From a virus, in IMG/VR virus record IMGVR_UViG_3300032241_003117, positions 1 to 42,667 of that record: 42,667 nt of DNA. One strand, 5' to 3'. Below the pieces are notes generated by a model. It worked only from the letters and a program-made list of their open reading frames with translations. It did not search any database and was not told the DNA's origin. Position numbers and translations under genes: made by a program. Each line of letters begins with the position of its first letter. The stretch's first letter is position 1. Positions 12,025 through 41,525 of this stretch are shown here, one piece after another.

Positions 12025-12671
12025 CTGATCCATTCTTGATATTTCATTGCGCGAGCATTGGGTGTTGCGAACCATTCTTCGGGCATGTTGGTAGGTTCTC
12101 CTACCATGATAAATTGTGTAGTACTGTAGGCCTGTATAACCGAAGCGACCTGGGCAATCCAATTTGGATTGTCAACCGGAGTTTCTTTGTTGTAGCCCAA
12201 CATGAACACTTCATCGTGGCCATCAAATGCGGCCAAATACAAAATGGTTACTAGATCCAACAACTTGGGATTGTTGGGTATAAGATAAAATTCACCGGGG
12301 TTGTTTAGACAATTACGAGCACCAGTATACACAGTGTTGCTGGCAGAATATCCAGATTCCTTGAGCGTGTTTAAAGCCTCGGCCCGCGTTTCAACTACAA
12401 AATCTAATCGCATGTCAGCGGCGGCAAAACTTAGGCCATAAGTTTGTAATTTTTTTGACCCTAACAGGCCGCCACGATGGCGTTGTAGTCTAGCGTAGTC
12501 AAATCGTGCTCGATCATAGTCACTACCGATACAGGCCGCACGGCCAGAAATATGATGATTTTCAATGGGATTAGCAATCCACTCGCGATCTTGTTGCTTG
12601 CGACCTTTTGCCCAGGTACTGTTAACTATTACAAATTCGCCAGCATAGTCGCGACGATACTGTGGCGTCAT
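12009..12671 (-). CDS. Unknown protein, 220 aa
   Basis: I do not recognise a named family. The protein starts MTPQYRRDYAGEFVIVNSTW, has an 'NHHISGRAACIGSDYDRARF' block, and a C-terminal half with alternating hydrophobic strands and helices ('LLDLVTILYLAAFDGHDEVFMLGYN', 'TTQFIMVGE') that looks like a Rossmann-type alpha/beta fold. No signal peptide or membrane segment. The start codon overlaps the stop of the upstream fibre-tip gene as TAATG, so the two are translationally coupled. A glycan-related or fibre-assembly role would suit the position at the end of the fibre cluster, but this is inference from context alone. Confidence 0.75.
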   Translation of the reverse strand: MTPQYRRDYAGEFVIVNSTWAKGRKQQDREWIANPIENHHISGRAACIGSDYDRARFDYARLQRHRGGLLGSKKLQTYGLSFAAADMRLDFVVETRAEALNTLKESGYSASNTVYTGARNCLNNPGEFYLIPNNPKLLDLVTILYLAAFDGHDEVFMLGYNKETPVDNPNWIAQVASVIQAYSTTQFIMVGEPTNMPEEWFATPNARAMKYQEWISYCDV

Positions 12672-13456
12672 TAGAGAGACCCAACAGCTACTTCAATTAG
12701 GCCAGGTGTGTCAGAGTTGTATTCGTCGATGGCCTTGCCAATTACACAACCAAGTTGATATTGTGCAGGATCTAATCTAGTAGCCACACCTGCAATTGAA
12801 CTGTTGACCAGGCAATCGCCCTTGCGTATGGTACCTACCACACGAACCGGAACGCGACCTACCAAGGCTACCTGTGTTGCACGATCACTTTGTAAACTGC
12901 TATTCATTAGATAACTAGGATTGGTACTGACCACACCAAGTACAGCAGTATCATGACTTTGATCGCTGACTGTGACTTCATGTGAACCACCGTGTACCAA
13001 CACCGTTCCAGATTCATAATCAGCATCGGCTGCATACATTTCAGCCAAGTCAGCATAAACAGCCGATGTGGCCTTGGCAAATATGGTATTCCAATAAACA
13101 CCCGATGTTCCGATATTGCCTGTACCGTAGGCACCGTTGTTTACAACGTTACCAATAACAAGTGTTCCTGCTCCAACCGTGGCATTACCAGCATAGATAT
13201 TGCCGCCAGAGCCGGTGGCATTGACCAAGACTCGACCGTCACCGCCGGTTGCAATGAAAATGTTGGCTACGTTGGCTAAGCCAGTAATACTTAGGATTGT
13301 AGGAACTGGATAAGGTTGAGCAATAATATTACCAGCATACACGTTGCCTGTAGCTGTAGTAGGCGGTATTGCTGTTGGTTGTGATGCCATAAAGCCACCA
13401 GCCAGGAGATTTCCTGTGGCCGATACGCCTGTTGTTCCGTCTAGTGTTAGTGCCAT
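12671..13456 (-). CDS. Short fibre protein with phage fibre C-terminal domain
   Basis: A 261-residue protein. The first 130 residues carry a short stalk of GN repeats (GNVYAGNII, GGNIYAGNATV, IGNVVNNGAYGTGNIGTSG). The remainder is a compact domain beginning 'YADLAEMYAADADYESGTVLV', then 'DTAVLGVVSTNPSYLMNS', 'VALVGRVPVRVVGTIRKGDCLV' and 'GCVIGKAIDE'. This domain ends many fibres of marine T4-like phages and resembles the C-terminal, sometimes self-cleaving, fibre domains; no catalytic residues could be assigned. It may be a separate fibre tip or a trimerisation module for the giant fibre upstream. A late box (CTAAATA) overlapping the upstream stop codon and an AAAGGACAAG site precede the ATG. 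Confidence 0.78.
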   Translation of the reverse strand: MALTLDGTTGVSATGNLLAGGFMASQPTAIPPTTATGNVYAGNIIAQPYPVPTILSITGLANVANIFIATGGDGRVLVNATGSGGNIYAGNATVGAGTLVIGNVVNNGAYGTGNIGTSGVYWNTIFAKATSAVYADLAEMYAADADYESGTVLVHGGSHEVTVSDQSHDTAVLGVVSTNPSYLMNSSLQSDRATQVALVGRVPVRVVGTIRKGDCLVNSSIAGVATRLDPAQYQLGCVIGKAIDEYNSDTPGLIEVAVGSL

Positions 13457-18153: not shown

Positions 18154-18375
18154 TTATGATATGCCTGTATATTCGTCGAATATCCCTGAGACTTGCATGG
18201 TGCCGTTGGCGCAGATACGCATTGGAGTCCCGCCTGTGCCGCTAACTTCATCAAAAAGTCCACTATAAACGGCCGAGTTGGCTATTTTTGAATTACTGTA
18301 AGTAACTTCATCCAGCTGATTTGCGTTGTTTATCAACAAATTACCGGTATTGTAAAGTCGAGCTGCCAAGGCCAT
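18154..18375 (-). CDS. Small fibre-associated protein (73 aa), minimal form
   Basis: The protein has the motifs AVYSGLFDEV (about residues 36-45) and a C-terminal MQVSGIFDEYTGIS. The same two motifs occur at the N- and C-terminal sides of the 289-aa LamG protein (AVYAGQFDEV and LQVSGYFDEETGIS), so this looks like the same protein without the lectin-like domain. It sits between two giant fibre genes, after a TGA and with AAGGAAAC as ribosome-binding site. Role unknown; an adapter or fibre-cap piece is possible. Confidence 0.72.
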   Translation of the reverse strand: MALAARLYNTGNLLINNANQLDEVTYSNSKIANSAVYSGLFDEVSGTGGTPMRICANGTMQVSGIFDEYTGIS

Positions 18376-18390
18376 GCGTCAGTTTCCTTA

Positions 18391-21300
18391 TCAATTGAAT
18401 GTAAAGTCAATACTCTGTAAGCTGGTATTGTAGGTCATGTGTGCTCCTGTACCAGCAGCACCAACACCGTTAGCCAGGTTCAAATAGGAGTTAGCTGTGA
18501 TATTGCCCGTGGCACTGATATTACCTGTTACGTTTTGACCAGTTGGCGTAAACACAGCCACATTACCTACGCCACTTACTGCCACAGTCACGTTGGCGTT
18601 AGCAGCACTAATAGTTACATTTGACTGTCCGTTGTTGATGTTGCTGACTGATGTAATAATACCAGTCAACAAACTACCATTGCCGTAGAAGTAACCAGCA
18701 CTTACGTTGCCCGTTGTAGTGATACTGTTACCTGTTACACTGGCTACTGTGACTAGGCCACCGGCACTAAGCTGTCCACCTGTGGCAATGTTACCGCCTG
18801 TAATATTACCCGAAGCACTGATAGTAGTACCTAAAATACTTACACCATACAAGTTACCACTGGCGCTGACTGTTGTACCTAAGATAGTAGCACCTGTTAC
18901 ACTGCCACTGGCACTTACTGTTGTGCCTAAAATACTTACACCATACAAGTTGCCACTTGCACTAACTGTAGTGGCCAATACCGTGGTTCCAATGATATTA
19001 GAGCCGTTAATATTGCCAGCAGTACTGATATTGCCGGCAATATGTAAGCCAGTTATAGTAAGATTTCCACCAAAAATGTTACCAGTACCAGTTACAATTC
19101 CAGAGCCAAATAATATGTTACCGCCAGTGACATTACCAGAAGCCGATACTGTTGTTCCGTATACGTTTGAATTTACATTGCCGGCTGTTACGTTGCCAGA
19201 CATACTGACCGCAGTACCAATAATACTAACGCCATATACGTTGCCACTAGAACTGATTACTGAAGTTAATATGTTACCGCCAGTGATGTTGCCTACTACA
19301 CTGACTGTGGTACCGAAAACACTGGCCACATAAATGTTGCTCCAGTATAAGTTTGTAGTACCCAATGTGTTGGCTGCGTTGGCACTAGGTGCAATGCCTA
19401 CGTTGGTAGACCAGGCAGCTGCTGTGTTGCTGTAGATCCAGGTCACTAATGGAGCTGAACCTGTGTTACCAATCCATAAACCAGCATTGGCAATGCCATT
19501 GACTGTGCTTTGATTATTGGCAAGTTCTAAGTTTTTCTCGTTGGTTGTAAGTACTGTTGCGTTACTGAATGTAATGTTGCCTGCTACGCTTAAATTACCT
19601 TGTACATTCAAGTCACTGCCCATGGTAACAGCACCAGTCAACGATGTTGTGCCAAATACACTCAATGATCCGCCGCTGATTACATTACCACCAGTTACAT
19701 TGCCTGTGGCGCTGAATACACTACCAATATGGCTGGCAGCACTGGCAATACCGGCTGTTAAAATATTACCACCAGTTACATTGCCTGTGGCGCTGACTAA
19801 TCCACCTGTTAGTAGGTTGCCGCCTGTGATATTGGCTGTGGCTGATATTTGTCCTGTGGCACTGATGTAGCCACCTGTTAAGATGTTGCCACCGGTTACG
19901 TTGCCAGATGCACTGACAGTTGCACCAAATGTGTTTGAGTTTACATTGCCGGCAGTGATGTTACCTGCGGCACTGATCAAGCCACCGGTTAATACGTTAC
20001 CACCAACTACGTTGCCTGTTAGGCTGAGTACGTTAGTGGATGAATTGTATGTGAATGCCGAAGTAGCACCTAAGTTACCACTGTTGTTATATTGTACCTG
20101 GGTATTTGAACCAGCGGCTGTTACATTACCAGTAATATTACCAGCAAAGTTACCTACAAAATATCCACTGGTAACAATATTACCACTGGCGCTGAGCGCA
20201 TTAGTTTGAATGTTGCCGGCTACGCTTAAAGCAGTTCCACTGGTGTTGGCAATGTTGACTGTGGTGTTGGCTGTGAATGTTACTGTGGCGTTGCCTGTGG
20301 CAGCACCAACTGTGATTGTGGTATTGCTATTGGCCAGACCTGCTGTGCCAATATTAATAACCTTGCCAACTCCACTGGTGCTGGCACCAGATCCAATGTT
20401 GTATGTGGCATTGGCTGTGCTGGATCCAATAGTAGCATTAGTTCCAGAAGTTGTGATGTTGGCAGCAAACAAGTCACCGGTGGCAGATACTATACCAGCT
20501 GAAATTAAATTGCCACCGTTTACGTTGGCACTGGCCGAAACTGTAGTGCCATATACGTTGGCATTTACGTTAGGAGCTACAATATTGCCTGTGGTTGTTA
20601 CTGTGCCTGTGACGCTGACACCAGTTGGTGTAAACACCGCTATGTTGCCTACGGTACTAACACCCACGGTCACGTTGGCATTGGCTGAGTTGATACTTAC
20701 GTTGGTCTGACCATTAACTATGTTTGGCTGTGGGCCAACGTCAATACCGGTCAATAGGCTACCGTTACCATATAAGTAACCGCCAGCAATATTGCCTGCG
20801 GTTGAAATTGAGTTGCCGGTGACACTGGCTACGGTTACCAAGCCACCTGCACTAAGGGTTCCACCTGTGGCAATATTGCCACCTGCAATATTTCCTGAAG
20901 CACTAACTGTTGTAGCAAGAACACTGACGCCGTACAAGTTACCACTTGCGCTAACTGTTGTAGCAAGAACGGTAGTACCAACAATGTTGGCACCATTGAT
21001 ATTGCCGACGGCTGTAACATTGCCAGCAACTACGTTGCCCGTGACTGAAACAGTATTATCAAAATTGACATTACCATAGATATTGCCTGAAACACTAAGA
21101 TTTCCACCGCTGATATTGCCAGCGGTACTGATGTTGCCAGCAATATGTAGGCCAGTTACTGTAAGGTTACCGGCAAAAATGTTTCCAGTGCCTGACACAA
21201 TGCCTGCACCAAATACCACGTTGCCACCGGTAACATTACCAGAAGCACTTACGGTTGTTCCAAGTATGCTCACACCATATAGGTTGCCACTTGCACTAAC

Positions 21301-21669
21301 TGTTGTGGCATTAACTGTGGCGCCGGTAATTGTGCCACTTGCGCTGACTGTTGTACCAAGGATACTTACACCGTACAGGTTTCCACTGGCGCTGACTGTT
21401 GTACCGAGTACTGCGGTGCCAATGATGTTGGCACCATTGATGTTACCAGCAGTACTGATATTGCCAGCGATGTGTAAGCCAGTTACAGTAAGATTTCCAC
21501 CGTAAATGTTGCCAGTGCCCGAAACTACGCCAGAACCAAAAAGTGCATTACCTGCTACCACGTTACCAGCGGTACTGACATTGCCTGCCAGCACATTACC
21601 GGCCACACTGGCGAATGTTTGAACGTTTATATTACCGTATACCGATGTTCCTGATAGCAGCTTTGCCAT
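18391..21669 (-). CDS. Giant GN-repeat tail fibre, 1092 aa
   Basis: Same repeat type as the 1545-aa fibre. Especially regular is LGTTVSASGNLYGVSILGTT, repeated many times with small changes, and the longer unit GNIFGGNLTITGLHIAGNIS, which recurs three times. One LANNQ module is present (TNEKNLELANNQST). Two YGNGSLLTGI turn motifs mark domain edges. The C-terminal part reads TPTGQNVTGNISATGNITAN and ends QSIDFTFN. AAGGAC serves as ribosome-binding site 12 bases after the stop of the LamG gene. A virion-surface receptor fibre is the likely role. Confidence 0.88.
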   Translation of the reverse strand: MAKLLSGTSVYGNINVQTFASVAGNVLAGNVSTAGNVVAGNALFGSGVVSGTGNIYGGNLTVTGLHIAGNISTAGNINGANIIGTAVLGTTVSASGNLYGVSILGTTVSASGTITGATVNATTVSASGNLYGVSILGTTVSASGNVTGGNVVFGAGIVSGTGNIFAGNLTVTGLHIAGNISTAGNISGGNLSVSGNIYGNVNFDNTVSVTGNVVAGNVTAVGNINGANIVGTTVLATTVSASGNLYGVSVLATTVSASGNIAGGNIATGGTLSAGGLVTVASVTGNSISTAGNIAGGYLYGNGSLLTGIDVGPQPNIVNGQTNVSINSANANVTVGVSTVGNIAVFTPTGVSVTGTVTTTGNIVAPNVNANVYGTTVSASANVNGGNLISAGIVSATGDLFAANITTSGTNATIGSSTANATYNIGSGASTSGVGKVINIGTAGLANSNTTITVGAATGNATVTFTANTTVNIANTSGTALSVAGNIQTNALSASGNIVTSGYFVGNFAGNITGNVTAAGSNTQVQYNNSGNLGATSAFTYNSSTNVLSLTGNVVGGNVLTGGLISAAGNITAGNVNSNTFGATVSASGNVTGGNILTGGYISATGQISATANITGGNLLTGGLVSATGNVTGGNILTAGIASAASHIGSVFSATGNVTGGNVISGGSLSVFGTTSLTGAVTMGSDLNVQGNLSVAGNITFSNATVLTTNEKNLELANNQSTVNGIANAGLWIGNTGSAPLVTWIYSNTAAAWSTNVGIAPSANAANTLGTTNLYWSNIYVASVFGTTVSVVGNITGGNILTSVISSSGNVYGVSIIGTAVSMSGNVTAGNVNSNVYGTTVSASGNVTGGNILFGSGIVTGTGNIFGGNLTITGLHIAGNISTAGNINGSNIIGTTVLATTVSASGNLYGVSILGTTVSASGSVTGATILGTTVSASGNLYGVSILGTTISASGNITGGNIATGGQLSAGGLVTVASVTGNSITTTGNVSAGYFYGNGSLLTGIITSVSNINNGQSNVTISAANANVTVAVSGVGNVAVFTPTGQNVTGNISATGNITANSYLNLANGVGAAGTGAHMTYNTSLQSIDFTFN
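19318..19562 (-). repeat. LANNQ fibre module, copy 2
   Basis: Single copy in the 1092-aa fibre; includes STNVGIAPSAN and LGTTNLYWSNIYVASVFGTT. More diverged than copies 3 and 4. Confidence 0.65.
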
Positions 21670-21681
21670 TTTTTATTGTCC

Positions 21682-22551
21682 TTAGCTAATGCCTGTTTCT
21701 TCATCAAAATACCCAGAAACCTGTAAAGTTCCTGAGTTGATTTGTCTTTGCACTGTATTTAGCGTAAACGGTTTAGAACTGCTTGCACCCAGGTTTCCTT
21801 GGCTTTGTGCTCGGAATCCATTGGGGCTGGTGTCAGTAAAAAGTCCGCCGTTGTTGGGCATACACAGTAAGAGTTGTGTGTTTGTGATTGAGACCAAGGG
21901 TGCATAGGGTGGAGTAAAATTCTGTGTGTACAGGTTGGATCCTATGACTACACGCAGGTTGCTCATAAAACTGCTGCCACCATTATTACCTGGGCCATTG
22001 TTGTCGTAAAATCCGTTTACAGTCCATTGAGTTGCTGTACTAATTGCCGAAGTATAAGTGGCTGTACCGTCTAGCACACCGTTGACATAGACTTGTCTAA
22101 CTCCAGCAGTGCTACAGCTCACGGCCACATGATACCAGGCGTTGGCTGGGTATGTTCCTGTAGTTGTAATGGATACCGGGTAAGCAGTGCCGTTGCCTTG
22201 ACGGAATCTAAACTGATTGGCAGTGCCAAGGCCCCAGTCCAGGGCAAAACTTTGTCCATACTGTGTGCCATCACCTATGCTGAATACCGCCCCGGTGGTT
22301 TCAGGATAGATCCAGGTTTCAAATGTCCAGGTCTGGCCCACAGTGCCAATGTTGAACACTGGACTGATGCCAAACATGTAGTTGCCAGAACCTGGAAAAC
22401 TGATGCTGCCGGCGGCTAGAAACACTTCGTCAAATTGTCCAGCATACACAGCAGTAGGAGTTATACTGACCCAGGTCTTGGTGATTTCATCGTAGTAACC
22501 GTTGGTGTAAAGTATGCCGTCGGGTGTGAGTCTAGTGGCTAATGTAGTCAT
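21682..22551 (-). CDS. LamG/concanavalin-like lectin-domain protein, 289 aa
   Basis: N-terminal residues (MTTLATRLTPDGILYTNGYYDE, AVYAGQFDEV) and the C-terminus (LQVSGYFDEETGIS) match the 73-aa protein downstream. Between them, about residues 45-260, lies a concanavalin A-like jelly roll of the LamG type: 'FNIGTVGQTWTFETWIYPE', 'NAWYHVAVSCSTAGVRQVYV', NGVLDGTATYTS, and 'NLRVVIGSNLYTQNFTPPYA'. Such domains bind sugars and are common at the tips of phage fibres. It starts three bases after the stop of the 1026-aa fibre gene and ends 12 bases before the next fibre gene. Probably a receptor-binding or capsule-binding piece; the ligand is unknown. Confidence 0.82.
   Translation of the reverse strand: MTTLATRLTPDGILYTNGYYDEITKTWVSITPTAVYAGQFDEVFLAAGSISFPGSGNYMFGISPVFNIGTVGQTWTFETWIYPETTGAVFSIGDGTQYGQSFALDWGLGTANQFRFRQGNGTAYPVSITTTGTYPANAWYHVAVSCSTAGVRQVYVNGVLDGTATYTSAISTATQWTVNGFYDNNGPGNNGGSSFMSNLRVVIGSNLYTQNFTPPYAPLVSITNTQLLLCMPNNGGLFTDTSPNGFRAQSQGNLGASSSKPFTLNTVQRQINSGTLQVSGYFDEETGIS
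21756..21762 (-). promoter_or_regulatory. Possible internal late box upstream of the 1092-aa fibre
   Basis: CTAAATA on the minus strand inside the end of the LamG gene, 87 bases before the fibre ATG. It may give the fibre its own transcript but could be chance. Confidence 0.35.
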
Positions 22552-22554
22552 TGA

Positions 22555-25500
22555 TTACCCAAATATAGTGTCTAAACTTCCAGTACTGGAATTGTATATT
22601 TGGTATACCGCACTGGTACCACCGCTGACCCAGTCTACTTGCCCGCCGACCACTACATTGTTACTGATCACATTGCCGCCAACCGAAACAGTATTGGCCA
22701 CTGCCACAGTGTTTGATACAGTAACCGTGTTTGATATGTCATTAAATGTAAGTCCGGCACTGGCACCTGCGTGCCCTTGGTTGTTGTAGATAACCTGTGT
22801 ATTTAGACCAGGTACTGTAACGTTGCCTGAAATATTACCAATGAAGGTACCAAGGAAGTATCCATCAGTGGTAACGTTGCCGTGAGCTGATATAATGCCG
22901 TCAGTTAAAATATTGCCAGCAACGACATTGCCTACAGCACTGACGTTTACATTGCTGTAGATGTTGCCTGAAGTTGAAACAGTTGCAGAAGTAATAGCAC
23001 CGGTGATTGAAAGGTTGGCTCCTTGCTGTACTGGTATGGTATTGCCATTGAACAACAAGTTGCCATTGCTGACACTCAAATTGCCACCACCAATCATTAC
23101 TGAATTGCCGGATACCCATAGTTCTTTCCAGGTGTTGGTAGCATTGCCTAGGCTGTAGGTTGCGTCAAGAGCCGGAACAATATTGCCAGCCCAGCCGGCT
23201 TCGGCGTAGGCCACCACTGTGGCATTGGCATAGTTGCTTACACCGGTCAACTGACTACCGTTACCTAGGAAGTATGTGGCTTTGACATTGCCTGTGACGC
23301 TGACATTGCCGGCTGAAATATTGCCAGTATAGGAAGCTAGATAAGCGGCCACATTGGCATTGGCATAGTTTGATACGCCAGTCAACTGACTGCCGTTACC
23401 AATAAAATAATTGCCTGTTATATTGCCTGTGGCGCTGACATTGCCTGCTGTGAATATGTTACCAGCAATGACATTTCCAGAACCAGAAATATTACCACCA
23501 GTTACATCGCCTGCGGCACTGATTTGACCTGCTGTTAAAATATTGCCGCCAACAATGTTGGCTGTGGCACTGATGCCCACATTGGTGGTCCACGCATTAG
23601 CAGCTGTGTTGTAGGTCCACGTGGTTAGAGGACCGGTTCCGGAATTTCCTGCATTTAGGCCCGCACCGTTGATGTTGGCATAGGTTGATTGATTGTTGGC
23701 TAGATCAATGTAAAGATCGTTTGTAACAATAACATTTGAGTCAATAAAAGTAATGTTGCCTTGAACATTCAAATTGCCCAGTATGTTACCGCTGCCATAC
23801 ATGAAGAAGTTATTACCGGTAACGTCGCCTGTGGCACTGATTTGACCGGTTGTTAATACGTTTCCAGCAGTGGCATTGCCAGAAACACTGACATTGCCTG
23901 CTGTTAGGTTGCCAGAGTATGTGGGCAAGTAAGCGGCCACGTTGGCATTGCTGTAGGCTCCAACAAGATTGCTGTAATTGATACCAGTTAATTGACTGCC
24001 ATTACCAATAAAATAGTTGCCGGTGATATTGCCTGTGGCACTGAACAGGCCGCCGGCATAGATGTCGCCTGCTACACCCACACCACCGCCAACTACCAGG
24101 GCACCAGTTGTAGTGGATGTGGCAACAACTGTGGACATGACATTGACCACATTGGCGCTGGTAATGCGCATGACCTGATTTACAGTGTCAAGTCCGCCGG
24201 TGGCAAACACAATGTCGTTGCTTAGATAGGTACCTAGGACTAGATTGCCGCCGCCTGTGTTGGCATTTCCAGCCACGTACAGATAAGCGTCATTGGGTTT
24301 GAGCAGGGCATAACCGGCATAGTTGTAGGTGCTACTGGCAATACCCAGATCCAAGAAACCGTCGTTGTAAGTGCCGTTGTCGGGACTCAGGAATATGTCG
24401 GTGGAGGCATTTTGACCTGGATTGATGTTTTGTCCGTTGAGTATGCCGGCATAGCCGTTAAAGTCAGCTGTGCTTTGTACTGTGCTTTGTGGTTCTGTCA
24501 GATAACCGTTAAGGATACCTGCGTATAGGGCACCAAAGCCAGTGGTGGTATTACCAAAGAACTGAGCACTGTTGCCGGTTACACTGGAGATGTTGCCCAG
24601 GATAGAAACATTACCACTGATGGTCAAGTTGCCGCCAATGGTGGCATTGTTGGCTATGGATATGGCATTGGCCACCACTGTACCCGATGTGGTCAGGCCT
24701 GTGAGTGTACCAACCGATGTGATATTGGGCTGTGCTGGTGTAAGCAGGGTACCAGTGATGTAGCTGACCGACAAGTTACCGGCCTGGATATTGCCGGTGA
24801 TGCTGATGTTGCCGGCTAGAATATTTCCAGTTACACTTACTGTGGCACCGTATAGGTTTGCATTGACACTATTGGCAATGATGTTGCCAGTTACACTAAT
24901 GCTTTGATCAAAACTAACGTTGCCAATGATGTTGCCCGATACACTGATGTTGCCAGCTAAGATATTGGCTGTGGTACTAATGTTGCCAGTGGTGCTGATG
25001 GAAACACTATTGCCACTTTGTAAAAATTGATACACATTGGCATTGCCATATGCGCCAGAAATATTGCCGGCATTGATATTGCTTAAATGACTACCATCAC
25101 CGTAGTAAAAGTTGGCTGTGACATTGCCCAGTATGCTGACACCGTTGGGTGATACTGTCAACACATTGGCTACACCCGAACTGCTGATGGTCACATTGGC
25201 ATTGGCCGATACCACCACATTTGAACTGCCAGAACTGATCGAATTGGCCTGGTAATTTTGTGTAAACGTTAACCCAGTGGTATCAATGACAATAGGATTG
25301 TCAGTGATCAACTTCCACTGAGTATCGGCAAACACAACGCCCTCGGTGACCATGATGATCATGCCGGCTTCTATTTCGCCTGTTGAGTTGGCATCCGAAG
25401 TGCGTACCCAGGTACCGTTTGATCCTGTACCTAGAGTGTATACATCATAGATACCGTTTTGACTGGCAGTGGCCTGGGCTGTGACCAAAACGCGATCGCC

Positions 25501-25713: not shown

Positions 25714-28700
25714 TTATGACAAGGTCACAGTGGCTGTTCTTGTTACACCGTCTGTGCCACGCACAACAAATGCTAGAGTGGTGTTGTTGACCAACTGGAA
25801 GCTGAGCTTGCTGTTGGCAGTTAAACTAGGTGCACTAGAACTTAAAGAAGCTACCAAGTTACCAACAACGTCAACTTCAGCAGCCGCATAGTTAGCTGTT
25901 ACCGTAGCATTACCGCTTTGGTTACTGATGTAAGTTACAGTTGTTGTTGTGGTCAATTGGCGTACATCAATCACGTCACCGACCGCAGGAGCTTCTGTAA
26001 AGGTCAGTGTTGTGCCTGACACAGCGTATGCCAGAGTTGGAATCTGTACCACACCGTTGATAGACACAATACAACTGGAGGTTGTTTGACTAGAACTCAA
26101 AGTAAATGTTACTGTTGAGCCATCGCCATTGAACTGCTCGTCGGTGATAACTGTGTAACTGGTTCCGCCTACTGAGGTCCATTCACTGTTGTTGTACACT
26201 TCCATTTGGTTTGTGCTGGTGTTGAAACGCATCATACCTGTGTACGGTGTAACTGGACGTTGACCTGTTGTTCCAACTGGAACCACAAACGAGTTGGTTG
26301 CATTCAGTGTAAGCACCGAGTCTTGTACCAGATTGGTCACATTGCCCATCAATACAGTATTGTCTGTGGTGTCAACCAAGAATGTACCAGCACCTTGGAT
26401 ATTTCCAGTAGCAGATACCAAATTGGTAGCATTTATGTTGTTACCGTTGACATTGCCACCGGCACTTACAGTGTTTGTGGCGTTGACGTTGTTACCGTTG
26501 ACGTTGCCGCCTGCACTGATATTTGTAGTTGCAAATACATTGCCACCCGCACTTATGTCTGTAGTAGCGTTGACGTTGCCGCCCGAAACATTGCCTGTGG
26601 CTGTGACTACTGGAGCAATAAATGTACCGCCACCAATTGAACCGCCGAGTGTCAAGTTACCTGCTTGATCCAACTGCAAGGTATAAGAAGCAACACCACT
26701 TGGACTAGAATTAGTTTCAAGTCCAACAAATGTAGAGCTTACACGCAAACGATTTTCGTCATCGTTAGAAATAACTACACCGTTGGCACTGCCGGCATCA
26801 ATCAGTATACCTGTTCCTGTGTCAACAATATTGGTTGAGAAGTACACATTTGGACCATCACTGCTGCCAAATATCTGTGCATGAGTGCCTACCAATACAT
26901 TGGATGTGGTACTGATATTGCCTTGAAGATTTAATCCTGTGTCGTAGAATGTAGCCACAAGATTGCCATCAACTGTGACCAGCACATTGCCACTGGCTGT
27001 AGGAATATTAACATTTGATGTACCATTGGCAATCTTGGTAGTGCTTACATTTGCACCATTGATGTTGCTGATAAAGTAACCGTCACCAAACAAGTAACTA
27101 CCAGCACCAATGTTGCCTGTAGCCGTGACGTTGGCAAATGAGCCTACATTACCTATGACGTTGCCACCGGCACTTATGTTAATATTTACAAGTACATTAC
27201 CACCTGCACTTATATTGGTAGTTGCATATATGTTGCCACCTGCCGACAAGTCGTTTGTAGAATTTATGTTGTTGCCGTTGACATTGCCACCTGCTGTGAC
27301 ATTTGTAGTAGCAACAACGTTGCCACCTATGACGTTGCCACCGGCACTGACATTAGTACCGGCCAACACATCTGAAGTAGCCGATACATAACCAGAGAGA
27401 ACCCAACCAGAACCAGAAATGTTGCCACCGGATCCTGTGGTAAACAAATTGCCACCGGTGATGTTGCCACCTGCTGTGACATTTGTAGTGGCATACAAGT
27501 TACCACCAGTGATGTTGCCACCAGTGATGTTGCCACCTGCTGACACATCGTTAGTGGTGCCAACGTTGTTGCTGTTGACATCGCCTGTTACACTGATTTG
27601 TACACCAGTTGCTGATCCAATGTTAGGAGTTGTAAACTGGGCCGAGCTAGAAACTTGTAGGTTACCACTGCCGTCATACTCTAAGTTGCCTGTGTTGACT
27701 CTGGTACTGATTACAGTACCAGTGATTTGAATACCGTTACCACCAGTATACTGAGCAGCACCTGTAAACTGTGTCCAGGTAATGGCTGAAAGTCCCATGG
27801 TGATTGGTGTAAATTCTGCTGTGTTGGTACAGACCCAACCTGTATCTTTCCAGATTGTTCCGCCAGCCACAAATGTGAATGCACCGTACATCAACGATGC
27901 TGTGTCGTTGTCGGTGCTGCGTGTCAACACTGTGTTTGTGGTATTGGCTGATGTTACGGTATAGATACCGTTCCAAGCAGCATCAGTATCGTTGGCACCG
28001 GATCCTGTTTCCTTGTCGATCAACACACGAGCATTGGCTTGTAGTGTGCTGAGATCAACACCGTCCAATAACACTGCACTTGTACTGGTTATGGTCAGGG
28101 TGGCACCAATACCGTTGCCGGCACCGTTGGGCTGATTATAGACCACATTGGTTACACCGGCCACGTTGGCCAAATAGGTATCTTCGCTGGTTTCTACAGA
28201 ATTTTTAACACTGAGGCCTTGCGCCACTGCATCAACATAGTGTTTGGTAGCTGCATCCTGTGGCTGTACAGGATCAACAACATTGTTGATCCAGTTGTTG
28301 CCGGCACCAATGTTACCGCCATTGGTAAACAGGCTGATGCCAGCATTTGTTCCAGATGCGCTGATCTGTAAGTCGCTGCCGTTGCTGTTGAGGAAATTGG
28401 TAACAACATTGCCACCAATTACATTGCCACCTGCACTGGCATCGTTGGTTATGTAGGCATAACTGCCATACACATTGCTGTAGGCCGAAATGTTATAGCC
28501 AAACACATTGCCTTGTAAACTGGCTCCATACGCAAGCAAATTGCCAGCGGTGATATTGCCACTGATACTGGCGTTGCCGTTGGCATTAATATTGTTTTCA
28601 ACTCTGATGTTACCGCTGATACTTATACTGTTACCTAGCAGTCGACCGTTGACCGAAGCAACACCTGTAACAAATAAATTGCCACCCACGTTGGTGTTGC

Positions 28701-29988
28701 CAAAAGAACTTAAAGTGCCTCCGCGAACAGCAAAGTCAGTATAAACATTGCCACCGGCTGTGACATCACCGTTGGTAAAAATATTACCACCAATGACATT
28801 GCCGTTGGCACTGACATCGTTTGTGGCATTTACATAGTTGCCCAACACATTGGCACCAGCGATAACGTCGCTGGTTGCAGATACATATCCAGCCAGGACC
28901 CAGCCTGAACCAACAATATTGCCGCCTGATCCAGAAGTAATCAAATTACCACCTGTAACATTGCCACCTGCACTGACATCTGTTGTGGCCAGTACATTGC
29001 CACCTATAACATTGCCGCCTGCGGTAACATCGCCAACTGTACTGATACCAGCACCTGTGTAAACATTGCCGCCAACTGATACATCAATGTTGAAATTTAC
29101 ACCCTGATCGTAGAATGTGGCTACTACGTCAGACCCAGATCCAATGGCAATTTCTAAGTTACCATTGGTTGCAGCAATGTTGGCATAACTTCCGCCGTTG
29201 AAAATCTTAGTTGAGTTTACGTTACCAGCATTGATGTTACTGATGTAGTAACCGTCACCAAATAGATAGCTACCAGCACCAATGTTGCCTGTGGCTGTGA
29301 TGTTGCCGCCAATGATCCAACCTGTGCCTGAAATATTACCAGGTGCGCCGTTGGTCAGCAAGCTGGCACCTGTGATGTTGCCACCTGCCGAAACATTGTT
29401 TGTAGAATTTATGTTGTTGCCGTTGACATTGCCACCAGCTGAAACATCAGTTGTGGCCAGTACATTGCCACCAACTACATTGCCACCAGCTGAAACATCA
29501 GTTGTGGCCAGTACATTGCCACCAACTACATTGCCACCAGCTGAAACATCAGTTACTGTAAAAACATTTTTAGATTTAAAATCTGCATAGCTGGAGATAG
29601 CTAAAGTTGTGTCGTCGCCCATGCCACTGGTGGTAAAGGCCGTGGCGAATTCTGCGTTGGCTTCGTTCCAGGCAAAGGCAATGTTGCTTTGATTGCCGCG
29701 AAGACCTATAAATCCAATGTCAACTGCTGGAGTACCTGAAGTTTGTCCGTCAGCTAAAACAATTAAGGGATCTTGAATGTTGGTGTAGGTGGTATCTACC
29801 GCAGTAGTTGTGCCTGTTACGCTAAGATTACCATCAATGGTAAAATCTGAGCCATATGTGAAATTGTTGGCCAGCAAGTTACTGGTAATACTGTAGGGCT
29901 GAACCTTGGTATTGGCATTGATACCAACGATTGTGTTACCGGTGACGGCATCACTGATTTGATTATTATTAATTCTTGTAACGGCCAT
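25714..29988 (-). CDS. Largest-but-one fibre: GN-repeat protein of 1424 aa with mixed modules
   Basis: N-terminal residues include a divergent form of the LANNQ type fold ('TNIQDPLIVLADGQTSG', 'NIAFAWNEANAEFATAF'). The stalk uses a different repeat from its neighbours, DVSAGGNVVGGNVLATT, 17 residues long. In the middle is a fibre domain starting DAATKHYVDAVAQGLSVKNS and ending 'TWTQFTGAAQYTGGNGI'. The C-terminus has three modules common in marine phage fibres: TTGQRPVTPYTGMMRFNTST, GDGSTVTFTLSSSQTTSSCI with 'INGVVQIPTLAYAVSGTTL', and a final strand-rich cap. Transcribed from its own late box with a 65-base leader that contains a small hairpin, then GGAGA. Ends at a terminator, so it is probably monocistronic. 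Confidence 0.86.
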   Translation of the reverse strand: MAVTRINNNQISDAVTGNTIVGINANTKVQPYSITSNLLANNFTYGSDFTIDGNLSVTGTTTAVDTTYTNIQDPLIVLADGQTSGTPAVDIGFIGLRGNQSNIAFAWNEANAEFATAFTTSGMGDDTTLAISSYADFKSKNVFTVTDVSAGGNVVGGNVLATTDVSAGGNVVGGNVLATTDVSAGGNVNGNNINSTNNVSAGGNITGASLLTNGAPGNISGTGWIIGGNITATGNIGAGSYLFGDGYYISNINAGNVNSTKIFNGGSYANIAATNGNLEIAIGSGSDVVATFYDQGVNFNIDVSVGGNVYTGAGISTVGDVTAGGNVIGGNVLATTDVSAGGNVTGGNLITSGSGGNIVGSGWVLAGYVSATSDVIAGANVLGNYVNATNDVSANGNVIGGNIFTNGDVTAGGNVYTDFAVRGGTLSSFGNTNVGGNLFVTGVASVNGRLLGNSISISGNIRVENNINANGNASISGNITAGNLLAYGASLQGNVFGYNISAYSNVYGSYAYITNDASAGGNVIGGNVVTNFLNSNGSDLQISASGTNAGISLFTNGGNIGAGNNWINNVVDPVQPQDAATKHYVDAVAQGLSVKNSVETSEDTYLANVAGVTNVVYNQPNGAGNGIGATLTITSTSAVLLDGVDLSTLQANARVLIDKETGSGANDTDAAWNGIYTVTSANTTNTVLTRSTDNDTASLMYGAFTFVAGGTIWKDTGWVCTNTAEFTPITMGLSAITWTQFTGAAQYTGGNGIQITGTVISTRVNTGNLEYDGSGNLQVSSSAQFTTPNIGSATGVQISVTGDVNSNNVGTTNDVSAGGNITGGNITGGNLYATTNVTAGGNITGGNLFTTGSGGNISGSGWVLSGYVSATSDVLAGTNVSAGGNVIGGNVVATTNVTAGGNVNGNNINSTNDLSAGGNIYATTNISAGGNVLVNINISAGGNVIGNVGSFANVTATGNIGAGSYLFGDGYFISNINGANVSTTKIANGTSNVNIPTASGNVLVTVDGNLVATFYDTGLNLQGNISTTSNVLVGTHAQIFGSSDGPNVYFSTNIVDTGTGILIDAGSANGVVISNDDENRLRVSSTFVGLETNSSPSGVASYTLQLDQAGNLTLGGSIGGGTFIAPVVTATGNVSGGNVNATTDISAGGNVFATTNISAGGNVNGNNVNATNTVSAGGNVNGNNINATNLVSATGNIQGAGTFLVDTTDNTVLMGNVTNLVQDSVLTLNATNSFVVPVGTTGQRPVTPYTGMMRFNTSTNQMEVYNNSEWTSVGGTSYTVITDEQFNGDGSTVTFTLSSSQTTSSCIVSINGVVQIPTLAYAVSGTTLTFTEAPAVGDVIDVRQLTTTTTVTYISNQSGNATVTANYAAAEVDVVGNLVASLSSSAPSLTANSKLSFQLVNNTTLAFVVRGTDGVTRTATVTLS
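29427..29554 (-). repeat. 51-bp perfect tandem repeat in the 1424-aa fibre
   Basis: About 2.5 identical copies of a 51-base unit starting at 29427, 29478 and 29529, encoding the 17-residue unit ATTDVSAGGNVVGGNVL. Identity at all positions, including third codon positions, shows recent expansion. Confidence 0.9.
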
Positions 29989-36771: not shown

Positions 36772-37728
36772 TTAGTTGTAATTTTGAACTTGTGCCAGGG
36801 TAAGATTGCCTGTACCATTGGCCCAGGTAACAGGATCTGCACCAGATTTAACTGTGGTTGAAGCAGCTTCACTGAATGTGAGTCCTGTTGTTGTACCAGC
36901 CGCAGTAACAATGTTAGCGGCTCCTTCGGCAGCAGCCAACTGGAACGTTGTTGTGCCGTCGGTGTCAACTACATAGTAATTTGTTGGGTTGACATATCCA
37001 GTAATTGTAGCATTGCCTGTTAATGCTCCGCTGACTGAAATTACCGCACCTGTTGTAATATTGGTAGCGTCGGCAGTAAACCAGCCGTTGGCATTGGCCA
37101 CAGCCACGTCGCTGAAGGTAACTGGATTTGTTTCACCTGCAACAAAGAAGTTGACAGCATAGCGAACAGGCGGTGTATTGTTGTCCCAAATGTACTTGTT
37201 GGTCAAACGAGTCGCATAAACTGTACCACCGTTGGCATTGAATGTTATGTTCATTTGTCCACTGCTTAGTGTACCACTTGGTGTCAAAACACACTGTCCG
37301 CAATCGCTTGCTGTGCCTGTGCCAGCACCTGCACCGGTGGCTGTAAACACTTGTCCAACCTGTGGGTTGATGCCTGCACCAATCGCTGTAAAGTTGGTAT
37401 TGCCTAGGCTGAGGATTTGATAGCTAAAACCCGGAGTGAAACTTCCTGCTGTAACGGAATTTTCGCCAGAAACCAAATACTTGGTTTGACCTTTTTGTGT
37501 GATAATCCAAGCAGAACCTTGTTGTCCGTTTACGTTAGCTGTGATAGCAACAGTTGGAAACGTTGTTGATGCTACAGCCGAATTGCCACCAACTACACCC
37601 AAGAACTCAGCAGTGGTCATGCCAACTGGAATTACCTGTGTCTTTGGATCCAAGTTGGCAAACTGTGGATAACCGGCATCTGTTTGAACACCAGCATTTA
37701 ATTTTTGTATTTTAAGTGGACGACCCAT
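36772..37728 (-). CDS. Virion structural protein, 318 aa
   Basis: Starts MGRPLKIQKLNAGVQTDAGY and has 'AEFLGVVGGNSAVASTTFPT', an opening I associate with a virion protein family in T4-like aquatic phages. Residues about 95-140 contain a widespread phage repeat domain: 'SFTPGFSYQILSLGNTNFTA' then IGAGINPQVGQVFTATGAGA. The C-terminal third has 'GYVNPTNYYVVDTDGTTTFQ'. Expressed from a late box with a 90-base leader containing a hairpin and an AAGGAGA site; ends at a terminator, so probably a single-gene transcript. Strong translation signals suggest an abundant protein, an inference. Confidence 0.78.
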   Translation of the reverse strand: MGRPLKIQKLNAGVQTDAGYPQFANLDPKTQVIPVGMTTAEFLGVVGGNSAVASTTFPTVAITANVNGQQGSAWIITQKGQTKYLVSGENSVTAGSFTPGFSYQILSLGNTNFTAIGAGINPQVGQVFTATGAGAGTGTASDCGQCVLTPSGTLSSGQMNITFNANGGTVYATRLTNKYIWDNNTPPVRYAVNFFVAGETNPVTFSDVAVANANGWFTADATNITTGAVISVSGALTGNATITGYVNPTNYYVVDTDGTTTFQLAAAEGAANIVTAAGTTTGLTFSEAASTTVKSGADPVTWANGTGNLTLAQVQNYN

Positions 37729-37755
37729 TTTGTTTTCTCCTTAAAGAAGTCCGAT

Positions 37756-37771
37756 GTGGGTTCTAGCCCAC
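37756..37771 (-). promoter_or_regulatory. Leader hairpin of the 318-aa gene
   Basis: GTGGG-CTAGAA-CCCAC on the minus strand, about 10 bases before AAGGAGA. The ribosome-binding site itself is free. Confidence 0.4.
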
Positions 37772-37823
37772 TACGCTGTTGGGTATTAATCATCAGCATA
37801 AAACGCCCGATTGCGTTGACAAG

Positions 37824-37831
37824 TATTTATG
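37824..37831 (-). promoter_or_regulatory. Late promoter box for the 318-aa gene
   Basis: CATAAATA on the minus strand, 95 bases before the ATG at 37728, giving the longest leader in the window. Confidence 0.62.
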
Positions 37832-37866
37832 GATTTTTAGATATTTTGCCTGGATCTCAGGGTTTA

Positions 37867-37873
37867 TTAAATA
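37867..37873 (+). promoter_or_regulatory. Late promoter box abutting the TPR-glycosyltransferase gene
   Basis: TTAAATA on the plus strand ends five bases before the ATG at 37879. It is divergent from the box at 37824-37831, 35 bases away. Confidence 0.5.
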
Positions 37874-37878
37874 CATCC

Positions 37879-39024
37879 ATGGACATCAATGAACTTATAA
37901 ACCTTGGCAACGACTACAGAGACAAAAACAATCCTGAAGCTGCCTTATCCTGTTACGTGCAGGTAATTGCGGCCAATCGTCAGGTACCGGCGGCCTGGAA
38001 CAACTATGGCAACGTGTTGAGAGAATGTGGCGAGCCTGAATCGGCTATTCCTTTCTTAAAACATGCTATCCGACTGGATCCCACCAACGAAACTGCTCGC
38101 TTTAATTTAGCTGTGGCCTACCTGTTGGCCGGTGATTATGTCAACGGATGGCCACAATACGAAGAACGCTGGCAGTATGAACATCTCAAAGGTCTCTTAC
38201 CTAACTTGCCGCAACCGCGCTGGACTGGTCAAGATCTACAGGGCAAGACTATCTTGATCACCGGCGAGCAAGGACACGGTGATAACTTGCAGTTTATACG
38301 TTTTGCCAAGAATCTAGCCGACCGCGGTGCCACAGTTAAGGTCGCTGTCAACGGCAGTTTGATTCCATTATTTCGTAGCATGGCGTGTATTTCAGAATTT
38401 GTAGGTGATTTAAGTACAGCTGAGTTTGATTACTGGACTCCTATAATGAGTATCCCGGGATTCTTGGGCACAACTTTAGAAACGTTAGATCATGTACAGC
38501 AATACCTGTATGCAGACCCAGCCAAAGTCAAAGCGTGGAGTGACCGGCTGGGTCCTAAAAAACGCTTGCGTGTGGGCTTTTGCTGGTCGGGTCGCAGAGA
38601 CACCTGGATCAATCGTCACAAGGCCATGCCGTTTGCAGACATGCTGGCCTTGATACAGCGTAATCCTAGCTACGAGTGGGTCAATCTACAGTGTGATTGT
38701 ACGCCCGAGGAAGAAGCCGCATTGGTAACAGCAGGAGTACAGGCATACCCAGGAAGTATACAAGATTTTTCTGATTCTGCGGCACTGATACATCACATGG
38801 ATGTGGTCCTGGCTGTGGATACCGCCGTGGCACACTTGTCGGGTGCCTTGGGTCGTCCGGTCTGGGTCATGCTGAATCAGTTTGCCCTGGATTGGCGTTG
38901 GTTGTTGAATAGAGATTCAAGTCCTTGGTACACCACTGCACGCCTGTTCCGTCAACCTACCATGGGTGATTGGTCTACAGTCACTGAAAAAATCCACAAA
39001 TTTCTTACTTGGTATAAGATTTAA
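37879..39024 (+). CDS. TPR-glycosyltransferase protein
   Basis: A 381-residue protein. Residues about 1-105 are TPR repeats (NYGNVLRECGEPESAIPFLK, HAIRLDPTNETARFNLAVAY). The rest is a GT-B type glycosyltransferase of the family 9/41-like kind often fused to TPRs: GEQGHGDNLQFIRFAKNLAD at 129-148 and VDTAVAHLSGALGRPVWVML near 313-332, the donor-side loop. The frame is open upstream to 37705, but the ATG at 37879 begins the TPR and is preceded by a late-type box, so it is chosen. Likely adds a sugar to a phage structural protein or host surface glycan; substrate unknown. The end overlaps the convergent gene by 20 bases. Confidence 0.8.
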   Translation: MDINELINLGNDYRDKNNPEAALSCYVQVIAANRQVPAAWNNYGNVLRECGEPESAIPFLKHAIRLDPTNETARFNLAVAYLLAGDYVNGWPQYEERWQYEHLKGLLPNLPQPRWTGQDLQGKTILITGEQGHGDNLQFIRFAKNLADRGATVKVAVNGSLIPLFRSMACISEFVGDLSTAEFDYWTPIMSIPGFLGTTLETLDHVQQYLYADPAKVKAWSDRLGPKKRLRVGFCWSGRRDTWINRHKAMPFADMLALIQRNPSYEWVNLQCDCTPEEEAALVTAGVQAYPGSIQDFSDSAALIHHMDVVLAVDTAVAHLSGALGRPVWVMLNQFALDWRWLLNRDSSPWYTTARLFRQPTMGDWSTVTEKIHKFLTWYKI

Positions 39025-40117
39025 TCTGCTGTAACAGAATCTGTTCAAATTCTGGACTGTGAAAATATTCTTTATTTTTTAACAGTCTAGATTTAAAACT
39101 TTGATGTGTAGCCAAAATATCTTGTGGATCTGCCAACAGTTGATCTAAAAATTCCACTGTCATATTGATTCTGGTTTTGTGGTCGGTGATGTGGTCCCAG
39201 GTCTTCCACGGAATATAATCATCAAACATGTCAAGACCAACATCTTCAAGAAACTGGGCAGATCCTGTGGGTCCAATCAAAATGGGTATCTGATAGGCAG
39301 CGAATACCTTGCAGATTTTTTCCGTCAGCATTACACCTTCAGTTAAGCTGGTTTCTGTTATGAGATTTACTGCATACTCTTGATAAATCCAGCTGTGTAC
39401 TCCACTTTTTTTGCTGTCTACGCTGTCGCCGGCGATCTGTACCGGCAACAGGTGTGCATACGATTCTGCCAGGTCTCGTTCAGCCTGCGACATAAATTTT
39501 GTAACAGCAAACTCGGTTAAGCGTTGTTGAAAGGTTAAATTTGGTTGGTGTCCGGTTTTGGCAGAAAAGCTGTAGCCAATTTCATCAAACCACGGCCGGC
39601 TGGCTATCAAGGAAAATAGATAAATTCTGTGCCAGGGTGTGTTGCTGTTTAGGCACATGAGTGTTTTTGTTTTTTCCTTAAACTCAATGTCATACACAGT
39701 GTCAATTCTATCTTTAAAATACCGGCCCATGAGCCGCGCACTGTTTAACCATAAAAACGTGGGGAAAAACACAACGCCGGGTCGAGGATCATAATAGTAA
39801 GAAAAATCACTGGTTAGGATCACTGTGGGGGCTGATACAGATAATGTCTGTTGTATCTCCAGGTACGACGGCATACGTCCATTTTGTGAGTGATCCAGCT
39901 GTACCGGATTGATGGCTGTGTTTAACACTATCAATTCGATAGCATTGTCTACAACAAATTGTTTGATACGGTCTAATTGCGCTTGCCATTGGTCTGGCTC
40001 AAAACCTTCTGTGTCGTCGTCTAACAACAACAGGGTATTGCTGGTAAAAAATTGATCTAGATACAGCACAGGTCCTTGAGTATAGCGAGGGTTGTCTGTG
40101 GGCAGGGTGAATATCAT
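39005..40117 (-). CDS. Glycosyltransferase, GT10/fucosyltransferase-like
   Basis: A 370-residue soluble protein. The C-terminal half has the donor-binding pattern of alpha-1,3-fucosyltransferase-type enzymes: 'AVNLITETSLTEGVMLTEKI' then CKVFAAYQIPILIGPTGSAQ (about residues 243-285) and 'DMFDDYIPWKTWDHITDHKT'. A middle segment 'KTLMCLNSNTPWHRIYLFSL' is also like such enzymes. The N-terminal half is an alpha/beta domain with 'ELIVLNTAINPV' and 'TVILTSDFSYYYDPRPG'. A late box ends six bases before the ATG. With the TPR-GT and the methyltransferase it forms a small glycan-modification cluster. Family is recognised by motif only; the sugar is unknown. Confidence 0.68.
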   Translation of the reverse strand: MIFTLPTDNPRYTQGPVLYLDQFFTSNTLLLLDDDTEGFEPDQWQAQLDRIKQFVVDNAIELIVLNTAINPVQLDHSQNGRMPSYLEIQQTLSVSAPTVILTSDFSYYYDPRPGVVFFPTFLWLNSARLMGRYFKDRIDTVYDIEFKEKTKTLMCLNSNTPWHRIYLFSLIASRPWFDEIGYSFSAKTGHQPNLTFQQRLTEFAVTKFMSQAERDLAESYAHLLPVQIAGDSVDSKKSGVHSWIYQEYAVNLITETSLTEGVMLTEKICKVFAAYQIPILIGPTGSAQFLEDVGLDMFDDYIPWKTWDHITDHKTRINMTVEFLDQLLADPQDILATHQSFKSRLLKNKEYFHSPEFEQILLQQIKSYTK

Positions 40118-40123
40118 TGAAGA

Positions 40124-40130
40124 TATTTAG
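40124..40130 (-). promoter_or_regulatory. Late promoter box abutting the GT10-like gene
   Basis: CTAAATA on the minus strand, six bases before the ATG at 40117, located after the methyltransferase stop. Confidence 0.55.
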
Positions 40131-40145
40131 TGGGTACTGCGTTGA

Positions 40146-40751
40146 CTAGAATAGTCTGGCGGCCACCCATTGGTCTTGTGGGCCATCTGTAAACGCAGTG
40201 TGATTATGGTGTTTTAATATTCGATAACCGGGCTTTAATCGTTCCCAGATCGCTTCTTCGGTGACATCAGTCCAGTCGTACAGATATGCGGGCCACATTT
40301 CAGTTTCAGCACCACCATTGACACAACCATGTCCGCCCAGGAGTCGAGTATCGTCTATGATGATGATGTCATCGTAGGGACGTTGCTGTAAGATCTCCAA
40401 TTCTGTCAGTAGAGGTGTGTTGGAGCGGCCGTAGCGTTCTTCGTCGCCAAAGGCTGTGGTTCCGGCGCTGTAGTGTGCGTCTAAAAAAATGGTCACTGGC
40501 TCTGGCATGGTAGCCAGGAGTTCTGGAAGAATAGTTTTTGAATTGCCAAAATGTAAGTGTACGTTGGGATTGTTTTTAAAACGCTCACAGCAGTGATCAT
40601 ACCAAGGTTTGCTCAGTTCAACGGAGTGTACCTGTTCGTACTGATCAGCCACATGACCAATGCCATCGCCACGATAGGCACCTGTTTCTATGTAGTAGCG
40701 TGTGGGTTGCCGTTGACTGGCATGATAAAAGTGTTCAGTAAGTCGCGGCAA
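40146..40751 (-). CDS. SAM-dependent methyltransferase-like protein, TTG start
   Basis: A 201-residue class I methyltransferase-like fold. Motif I is ETGAYRGDG (22-30), followed by 'VHSVELSKPWYDHCCERFKN' with an acidic residue at the end of strand 2, 'NVHLHFGNSKTILPELLA', and 'TIFLDAHYSAGTTAFGDEER' then 'DIIIIDDTRLLGGHG'. This resembles small methyltransferases acting on sugars or small molecules near glycosyltransferases. An in-frame stop lies three codons upstream, so TTG at 40751 is the only plausible start; it follows the stop of the polyglycine gene by six bases and may be coupled to it. Substrate unknown. Confidence 0.72.
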   Translation of the reverse strand: MPRLTEHFYHASQRQPTRYYIETGAYRGDGIGHVADQYEQVHSVELSKPWYDHCCERFKNNPNVHLHFGNSKTILPELLATMPEPVTIFLDAHYSAGTTAFGDEERYGRSNTPLLTELEILQQRPYDDIIIIDDTRLLGGHGCVNGGAETEMWPAYLYDWTDVTEEAIWERLKPGYRILKHHNHTAFTDGPQDQWVAARLF

Positions 40752-40757
40752 TTGATT

Positions 40758-41525
40758 TTATGCTGTGTAACTTCCGGTAGAGCCGGTAAACGCTATAAAA
40801 GTGTTGGCGCCCGATGTGGTCACGGTTGGGCTACCTGTAACTGTGCCGGTGTAGAATGCGGTTGGCACTGCTATAATGATTACACCGTGTTGTCCGTTAG
40901 ATCCGTTTGCATTAGTAAGACCACCGCCACCACCGGATCCTAAGGCAGAATACTCGGTTCCTTGGGTTCCTCCGCCATAGGCATAGGTATTTCCGTCGAT
41001 CCATGTTGAACCTGCTCCAGCAGCAGCAATACCAGCACTTACTCCGCCAGCGCCACCGGCGCCGCCACCACCGCCACTATAACCGGGCGCTTGTGCTGTG
41101 GCTCCATTGTTACCTTGGCCTGAAGTTCCTGTTCCACCAGCATTTGTTCCGGGGCCACCGCCTCCGCCGCCTGATCCGCCATTGGTACCAGCTTGATTGG
41201 GTCCTCCACCACCACCGCCACCCAACGCAGTCAACCCAAACGCAGTTGAGTTCGCCCCAACGTTGCCAGGACCCGGATACGATGTTCCGCCGGTTCCGAA
41301 TGTTCCTATAGTAAATGAATAAGTTGTACCAGCGGTTAGATTTGTAGTTCCACTTAGATAGCCGCCAGCGCCACCACCACCTCCAAATTGATTGGAGCCG
41401 CCAGATCCAGAATAGCCACCACCACCACCACCAGCCACAATCAAATAGGATGCTGGGTAGGTCACAGCCGAGGTCATGGTAAATCCTGGCCCCATTGTAA
41501 ACCCCGGTCCTAATGTAATTGACAT
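40758..41525 (-). CDS. Polyglycine adhesin-like protein, 255 aa
   Basis: Starts MSITLGPGFTMGPGFTMTSA, then a strand 'YPASYLIVAGGGGGGYSGSG', and contains many runs of three to seven glycines separated by N, T, A and S across residues about 30-215. The glycine-run architecture recalls the receptor-binding tips of gp38 in T2/S16-like phages, where parallel polyglycine type II helices carry variable loops. The C-terminus (GQHGVIIIAVPTAFYTGTVT) is typical of the glycine-rich domain that ends in a hydrophobic strand. It lies beside gp23 rather than with the main fibres. A late box (CTAAATA) and AAAGGAT are upstream. Adhesin function is inferred from composition and layout. Confidence 0.75.
   Translation of the reverse strand: MSITLGPGFTMGPGFTMTSAVTYPASYLIVAGGGGGGYSGSGGSNQFGGGGGAGGYLSGTTNLTAGTTYSFTIGTFGTGGTSYPGPGNVGANSTAFGLTALGGGGGGGPNQAGTNGGSGGGGGGPGTNAGGTGTSGQGNNGATAQAPGYSGGGGGAGGAGGVSAGIAAAGAGSTWIDGNTYAYGGGTQGTEYSALGSGGGGGLTNANGSNGQHGVIIIAVPTAFYTGTVTGSPTVTTSGANTFIAFTGSTGSYTA

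Follow-up and report, generated by a model that had tools for sequence, protein, structure and literature searches.

The window, a 42,667-bp virus record, derives from a large T4-like myovirus that shares 68-71% identity in its major capsid protein with Sinorhizobium phage Phosso, Vibrio phage 2.275.O, and the Pseudomonas phage PA5oct group. Further adaptor copies may lie elsewhere in this phage. Two genes on the minus strand, at the coordinates given in the first-pass annotation, encode proteins of 73 aa and 289 aa, referred to here as the short and long FDE adaptors (P0001 and P0002). Both lie directly between fibre ORFs, the short one between boundaries at 18122 and 18391, and the long one between boundaries at 21669 and 22555. 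The features of the region are listed in Table 1.

Table 1. FDE adaptors, their repeats, and neighbouring fibre genes in the window.
Feature	Position	Strand	Remarks
Fibre B, 1026 aa	22555..25635	-	C-motif AVYQIYNSSTGSLDTIFG at end (about 22558-22611); without N-motif
Long FDE adaptor, 289 aa	21682..22551	-	R1, R2, LamG insert, R3
R1, long adaptor (residues 5-24)	22480..22539	-	sequence; close homologues score 31-34
R2, long adaptor (residues 28-44)	22420..22470	-	sequence; close homologues score 28-31
Domain inserted between R2 and R3, long adaptor	21757..22419	-	LamG match residues 72-178 (22018-22338)
R3, long adaptor (residues 267-286)	21694..21753	-	sequence; close homologues score 41-42
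Fibre C, 1092 aa	18391..21669	-	flanked by both adaptors; N-motif MAKLLSGTSVYG (score 43.6) and C-motif MTYNTSLQSIDFTFN
Short FDE adaptor, 73 aa	18154..18375	-	three contiguous repeats, without extra domain
R1, short adaptor (residues 4-25)	18301..18366	-	profile score 34.7; alignment
R2, short adaptor (residues 29-45)	18241..18291	-	profile score 27.0
R3, short adaptor (residues 51-70)	18166..18225	-	profile score 42.9
Fibre D, 1545 aa	13485..18122	-	after short adaptor; N-motif MAKLLSNTTVYG (score 45.4); without C-motif

The two motifs reported in the annotation as shared by the adaptors were recovered, AVYSGLFDEV and QVSGIFDEYTGIS in the short protein and AVYAGQFDEV and QVSGYFDEETGIS in the long one. 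This sharing far exceeds chance, with the two best distinct 14-residue matches scoring 57 and 44, whereas 60 shuffles reached at most 39 and 28. Rather than two end motifs, each adaptor contains three copies of one repeat of about 20 residues ("FDE"), the additional copy near the N-terminus (ARLYNTGNLLINNANQLDEVT in the 73-aa protein and ATRLTPDGILYTNGYYDEIT in the 289-aa protein) having been overlooked at first reading. The repeats end in LDEVT/YDEIT (R1), FDEVS/FDEVF (R2), and FDEYT/FDEET (R3), and 216 instances gave the consensus ASRLTSTGTLQVSGxFDEVT. The relative L167 has R2 and R3 as an almost identical tandem pair, with R1 similar to both. The AlphaFold2 model of the short form (42 sequences) was weak (pLDDT 63, pTM 0.33), with hairpin-like strand pairs readable only in R1 and R3, and searching the PDB for similar folds with it yielded no significant match (best E=2); the model of the LamG form (6 sequences) was unusable (pLDDT 32).

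The LamG domain placed between the shared motifs of the longer protein was confirmed by a match to Pfam PF13385 (Laminin_G_3, E=7.7e-16, 59 bits versus a curated cut-off of 27.6) within about 216 extra residues. The long adaptor gene is under purifying selection: in every comparison that allowed dS to be computed, dN was far lower (e.g., 0.07 versus 0.80). It is the content of LamG and glycine-rich domains, the latter found in relatives, that suggests the "receptor-binding" and "host range" roles put forward in the annotation.

Both adaptor genes were present at the same two sites in all ten IMG/VR contigs spanning both, in the order fibre, 289 aa (288 aa in two contigs, forming one pair), fibre, 73-80 aa, fibre. 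Because all ten clade relatives have both genes, the 289-aa and 73-aa genes are fixed paralogues, and the gain or loss of a cassette at the two sites of the window, as the annotation had supposed, is rejected. The position between fibres stands, whereas the description of these fibres as "giant" fails in relatives, where the fibres beside the adaptors vary in length between 125 and about 1,600 aa while adaptor sizes stay constant. Fibre B, for instance, has 1026 aa in the window versus 222-427 aa in relatives and retains its C-terminal motif; fibre length shifts quickly.

The wider family was collected by a profile search and by scanning DNA with a pattern built only on the C-terminal fibre motif, and comprised at least 113 distinct FDE ORFs, counted in partial contigs and in some cases closely related. 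Among the matches listed, 49 of the 59 complete distinct ORFs that immediately follow the C-motif contained exactly three repeats according to the profile; the others had two (five ORFs), four (one), one (one), or none (three). On inspection, several two-repeat ORFs contain a degenerate third copy, and in two of the three zero-repeat cases an unrelated small ORF intervenes (L096 and L162). The repeat count holds at three whether the spacing is 20 or several hundred residues. Four domain slots were defined, namely before R1, between R1 and R2, between R2 and R3, and after R3, and 12 of the 16 combinations of occupied slots occur among the matches listed. Within the same matches, no slot was filled in 22, only the last in 13, only the first in 10, only R2-R3 in 8, and both middle slots in 7, the range extending to all four filled. 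The inserts are mostly 185-260 aa or multiples thereof and are LamG, glycine-rich, or unrecognised; Pfam assigned LamG to several and Gly_rich_2 (PF21722) to others, the rest being without a match. More than one FDE adaptor per phage was noted at L131 (record G003) and L152, with apparently three in G003, in ORFs of 677, 825, and 749 aa.

In the wider family, extra domains have been gained, lost, and replaced at the slots around the repeats, and here the cassette idea, which failed for the two genes of the window, is supported: the R2-R3 slot and the three others are found both filled and empty. Loci L145 and L155 differ by 615 bp versus 60 bp in the interval from just after LDEVT of R2 to just before FDEVT of R3. 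Their left arms have no mismatches over the first ~600 bp (98.5% identity over 736 bp in all), and their right arms have two in the first 1,500 bp (98.8% over 4,833 bp in all). The left-arm mismatches are clustered in the last ~140 bp before the junction, which is expected if the segment was replaced through the conserved repeats, as was probably the case here. In the cyanophage branch, a domain has been cleanly lost: the metagenomic contig L053 is without the ~607 bp encoding the C-terminal domain of gp332 of Synechococcus phage S-SRM01; the aligned DNA is about 80% identical on both sides, with a clean stop after FDELTGVSDVTPPNP. In the wider-family search, the end motifs were not confined to unrelated contexts, and the insert was not always present.

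The fibre preceding an FDE gene carries YNxxTxSLDTIFG or a similar sequence at its C-terminal end (C-motif), with residues N, S, D, and F invariant in 26 aligned fibre ends. Among the matches listed, the C-motif was directly upstream of 106 of the 110 non-edge FDE ORFs; in two of the four exceptions one small ORF lies between, and in the other two the gap is longer. A small ORF ending in IEAMKQQR... was seen between the C-motif and the FDE gene at L180, L184, L096, and L162. The association is not built in by the search, because loci found through FDE queries had the C-motif immediately upstream in 33 cases and lacked it in one. The next fibre starts with MAKLLSGTRIYG (N-motif), the strict form of which followed 69 of the 91 FDE ORFs with room for it, with relaxed forms after most others; conversely, 70 of the 76 distinct N-motif ORFs directly followed an FDE ORF (both counts among the matches listed). 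For at least one FDE gene (L209), the gene that follows is not a fibre gene. In the window, the N-motif occurs only in fibres C and D (99.9th percentile of control scores, -9.2) and the C-motif only in fibres B and C, and the motifs are accordingly read as the chain B, adaptor with LamG, C, bare adaptor, D. The pairing with fibres proposed in the annotation is supported by these two terminal motifs.

The C-motif was never seen internal to a protein, and adaptor-fibre fusions, sought as proof of contact, were not found. Covariation between adaptors and fibre tails was modest and confounded by linkage (rho 0.29 overall); in 54 pairs with a relatedness control, rho was 0.24 and the partial value 0.19. 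In bacterial genome contigs, searched with the exact C-motif pattern, three matches were obtained, each at the end of a short, unrelated reading frame and together fewer than the ~7 expected by chance according to our own estimate with uniform base frequencies.

Comparison of 42 repeat modules with Pfam and PHROGs returned no consistent family, and a sequence search of the PDB gave no credible match, the best (myelin P2, E=0.016) being taken as chance. No description of the FDE adaptor family was found in the open PubMed Central literature, the body of papers covered. Within the phage collection, a single cultured relative was found, S-SRM01 gp332 (YP_010670307.1), annotated as hypothetical, whose N-terminal 76 residues correspond to the FDE module with 33-38% identity; a tblastn search of phages with two other modules gave nothing significant. 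As in the window, a fibre follows gp332, and the preceding gene ends in NSLDFIFI. Unlike the long adaptor, gp332 has a degenerate R2 and a different domain of ~210 aa after R3, with no LamG between R2 and R3. In gene position, a known parallel is T4 gp35 (NC_000866, "long tail fiber protein proximal connector"), encoded between gp34 and gp36 as the FDE gene is between fibres, and the likeness may extend to the job of joining two fibre segments. No relation between the FDE module and gp35 was detectable (hhalign probability 0.14%, E 0.42); T4 gp35 is without FDE repeats, T4 gp34 is without the C-motif, and the N-terminus of T4 gp36 scores -18.3 on the N-motif profile versus at least 33.7 for N-motif members. 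Domain shuffling is known for phage receptor-binding proteins in general, and the FDE family resembles them in that binding domains have recently been swapped while the part used for attachment is conserved (PMC10684548). The layout is different, since the usual receptor-binding protein has one conserved N-terminal and one variable C-terminal part, whereas in FDE proteins three repeats frame four slots, some of them internal.

The FDE proteins combine a three-repeat scaffold, four slots, domain exchange, and a two-sided association with fibre termini. The best reading, which we consider fairly probable, is that they are an undescribed family of fibre-joint adaptors carrying exchangeable binding domains. 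An adaptor would dock on the C-terminal end of the preceding fibre, assumed to be a homotrimer, with one repeat per chain, and would hold the N-terminus of the fibre that follows. The parts of a segmented fibre would then be joined physically in the order of their genes, B, adaptor, C, adaptor, D, much as in T4 gp34-gp35-gp36-gp37, the first joint of the window carrying a lectin-like domain and the second being bare. The extra domains may protrude at the joint and recognise surface glycans. A more specific model is offered tentatively, a single-chain pseudo-threefold connector seated on a homotrimeric fibre end with one repeat per fibre chain, which would let one symmetric fibre carry up to four different binding domains, and in which the repeats act as recombination arms for domain exchange. 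Against a joint, conserved operon order alone could hold the three genes together; the failure to find adaptor-fibre fusions, the weak model of the short form, the missing sequence relation to T4 gp35, the modest covariation with fibre tails, and the non-fibre gene after the FDE gene of L209 also count against it.

The main rival, which we judge rather unlikely, is a tip adhesin like T2/S16 gp38: the FDE protein would cap the preceding trimeric fibre at its free distal end, the neighbouring fibres would be separate fibres on the same baseplate, the inserts would form the receptor-binding head, and the 73-aa form would be a simple cap. The FDE gene does come immediately after a fibre gene whose product has a conserved C-terminus, just as the T2/S16-type gp38 adhesin, with its variable receptor-binding part, is encoded directly after a trimeric fibre. 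Lectin-type domains fit a tip, and the glycine-rich domains (PF21722) of some members recall T2-type gp38, a protein rich in glycine that forms the tip of the gp37 trimer (PMC12892980). However, none of the 42 FDE modules matched the Pfam gp38 model, and FDE proteins differ from T2/S16 gp38 in their four slots around three repeats and in the motif-bearing fibre that follows. A tip adhesin leaves unexplained both the near-constant and exclusive N-motif of this next fibre and the two motifs of fibre C between two FDE genes. The joint is preferred because it explains both fibre motifs, and the tip adhesin the first only.

The two other alternatives seem to us improbable to a similar degree, the latter perhaps marginally more so. 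An assembly chaperone would aid the folding or trimerisation of the preceding fibre without being a stable adhesin, its extra domains being passengers. T4 gp38, an assembly factor encoded after gp37 (T4 record note; PMC12892980), is a precedent, and the bare 73-aa form without a binding domain suits this role, but the exchange of up to four large, varied lectin-type domains at fixed slots would be unusual for a chaperone. No sequence relation to T4 gp38 was detected (hhalign probability 0.6%). Alternatively, FDE proteins may be virion proteins attached elsewhere, the three genes travelling together by shared descent. The covariation with the fibre tail, weak after allowing for relatedness, agrees with such mere neighbourhood, whereas the near-exclusive occurrence of both motifs in genes adjoining an FDE gene argues against it, as do the possible presence of two or three FDE genes per phage and the recurrence of the motifs at each copy in the clade of the window.

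Phage host range is often altered by swapping the fibre end; how several different binding domains might be added to one symmetric fibre is, to our knowledge, poorly understood. The family combines a constant scaffold with defined slots and two fibre motifs of diagnostic value, and it includes a natural pair, one with and one without a domain, whose flanks are near-identical. The C- and N-motifs allow fibres and adaptors to be found and paired in unannotated phages, and the cultured phage S-SRM01 makes the adaptor family testable. If the joint reading is true, the family shows how repeated units make up segmented fibres and how the joints between them evolve.

Several other genes of the window were recorded. 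A free-standing glycine-rich protein without FDE repeats (40758-41525, minus strand) resembles, by eye, the FDE-attached glycine-rich domains of relatives. The 261-aa protein encoded after fibre D (12671-13456, minus strand) matches the Peptidase_G2 IMC autoproteolytic cleavage domain, though short of the threshold (E=1.1e-4), and may be a chaperone end of a fibre that cleaves itself. In a 1424-aa fibre (25714-29988, minus strand), the FapA beta-solenoid model matched in five stretches (E=7e-11), which hints at a solenoid rod. The structural genes are interrupted at 37705-40751 (both strands), where a TPR/glycosyltransferase-like protein on the plus strand and two minus-strand genes, one of them methyltransferase-like, were recognised by eye.
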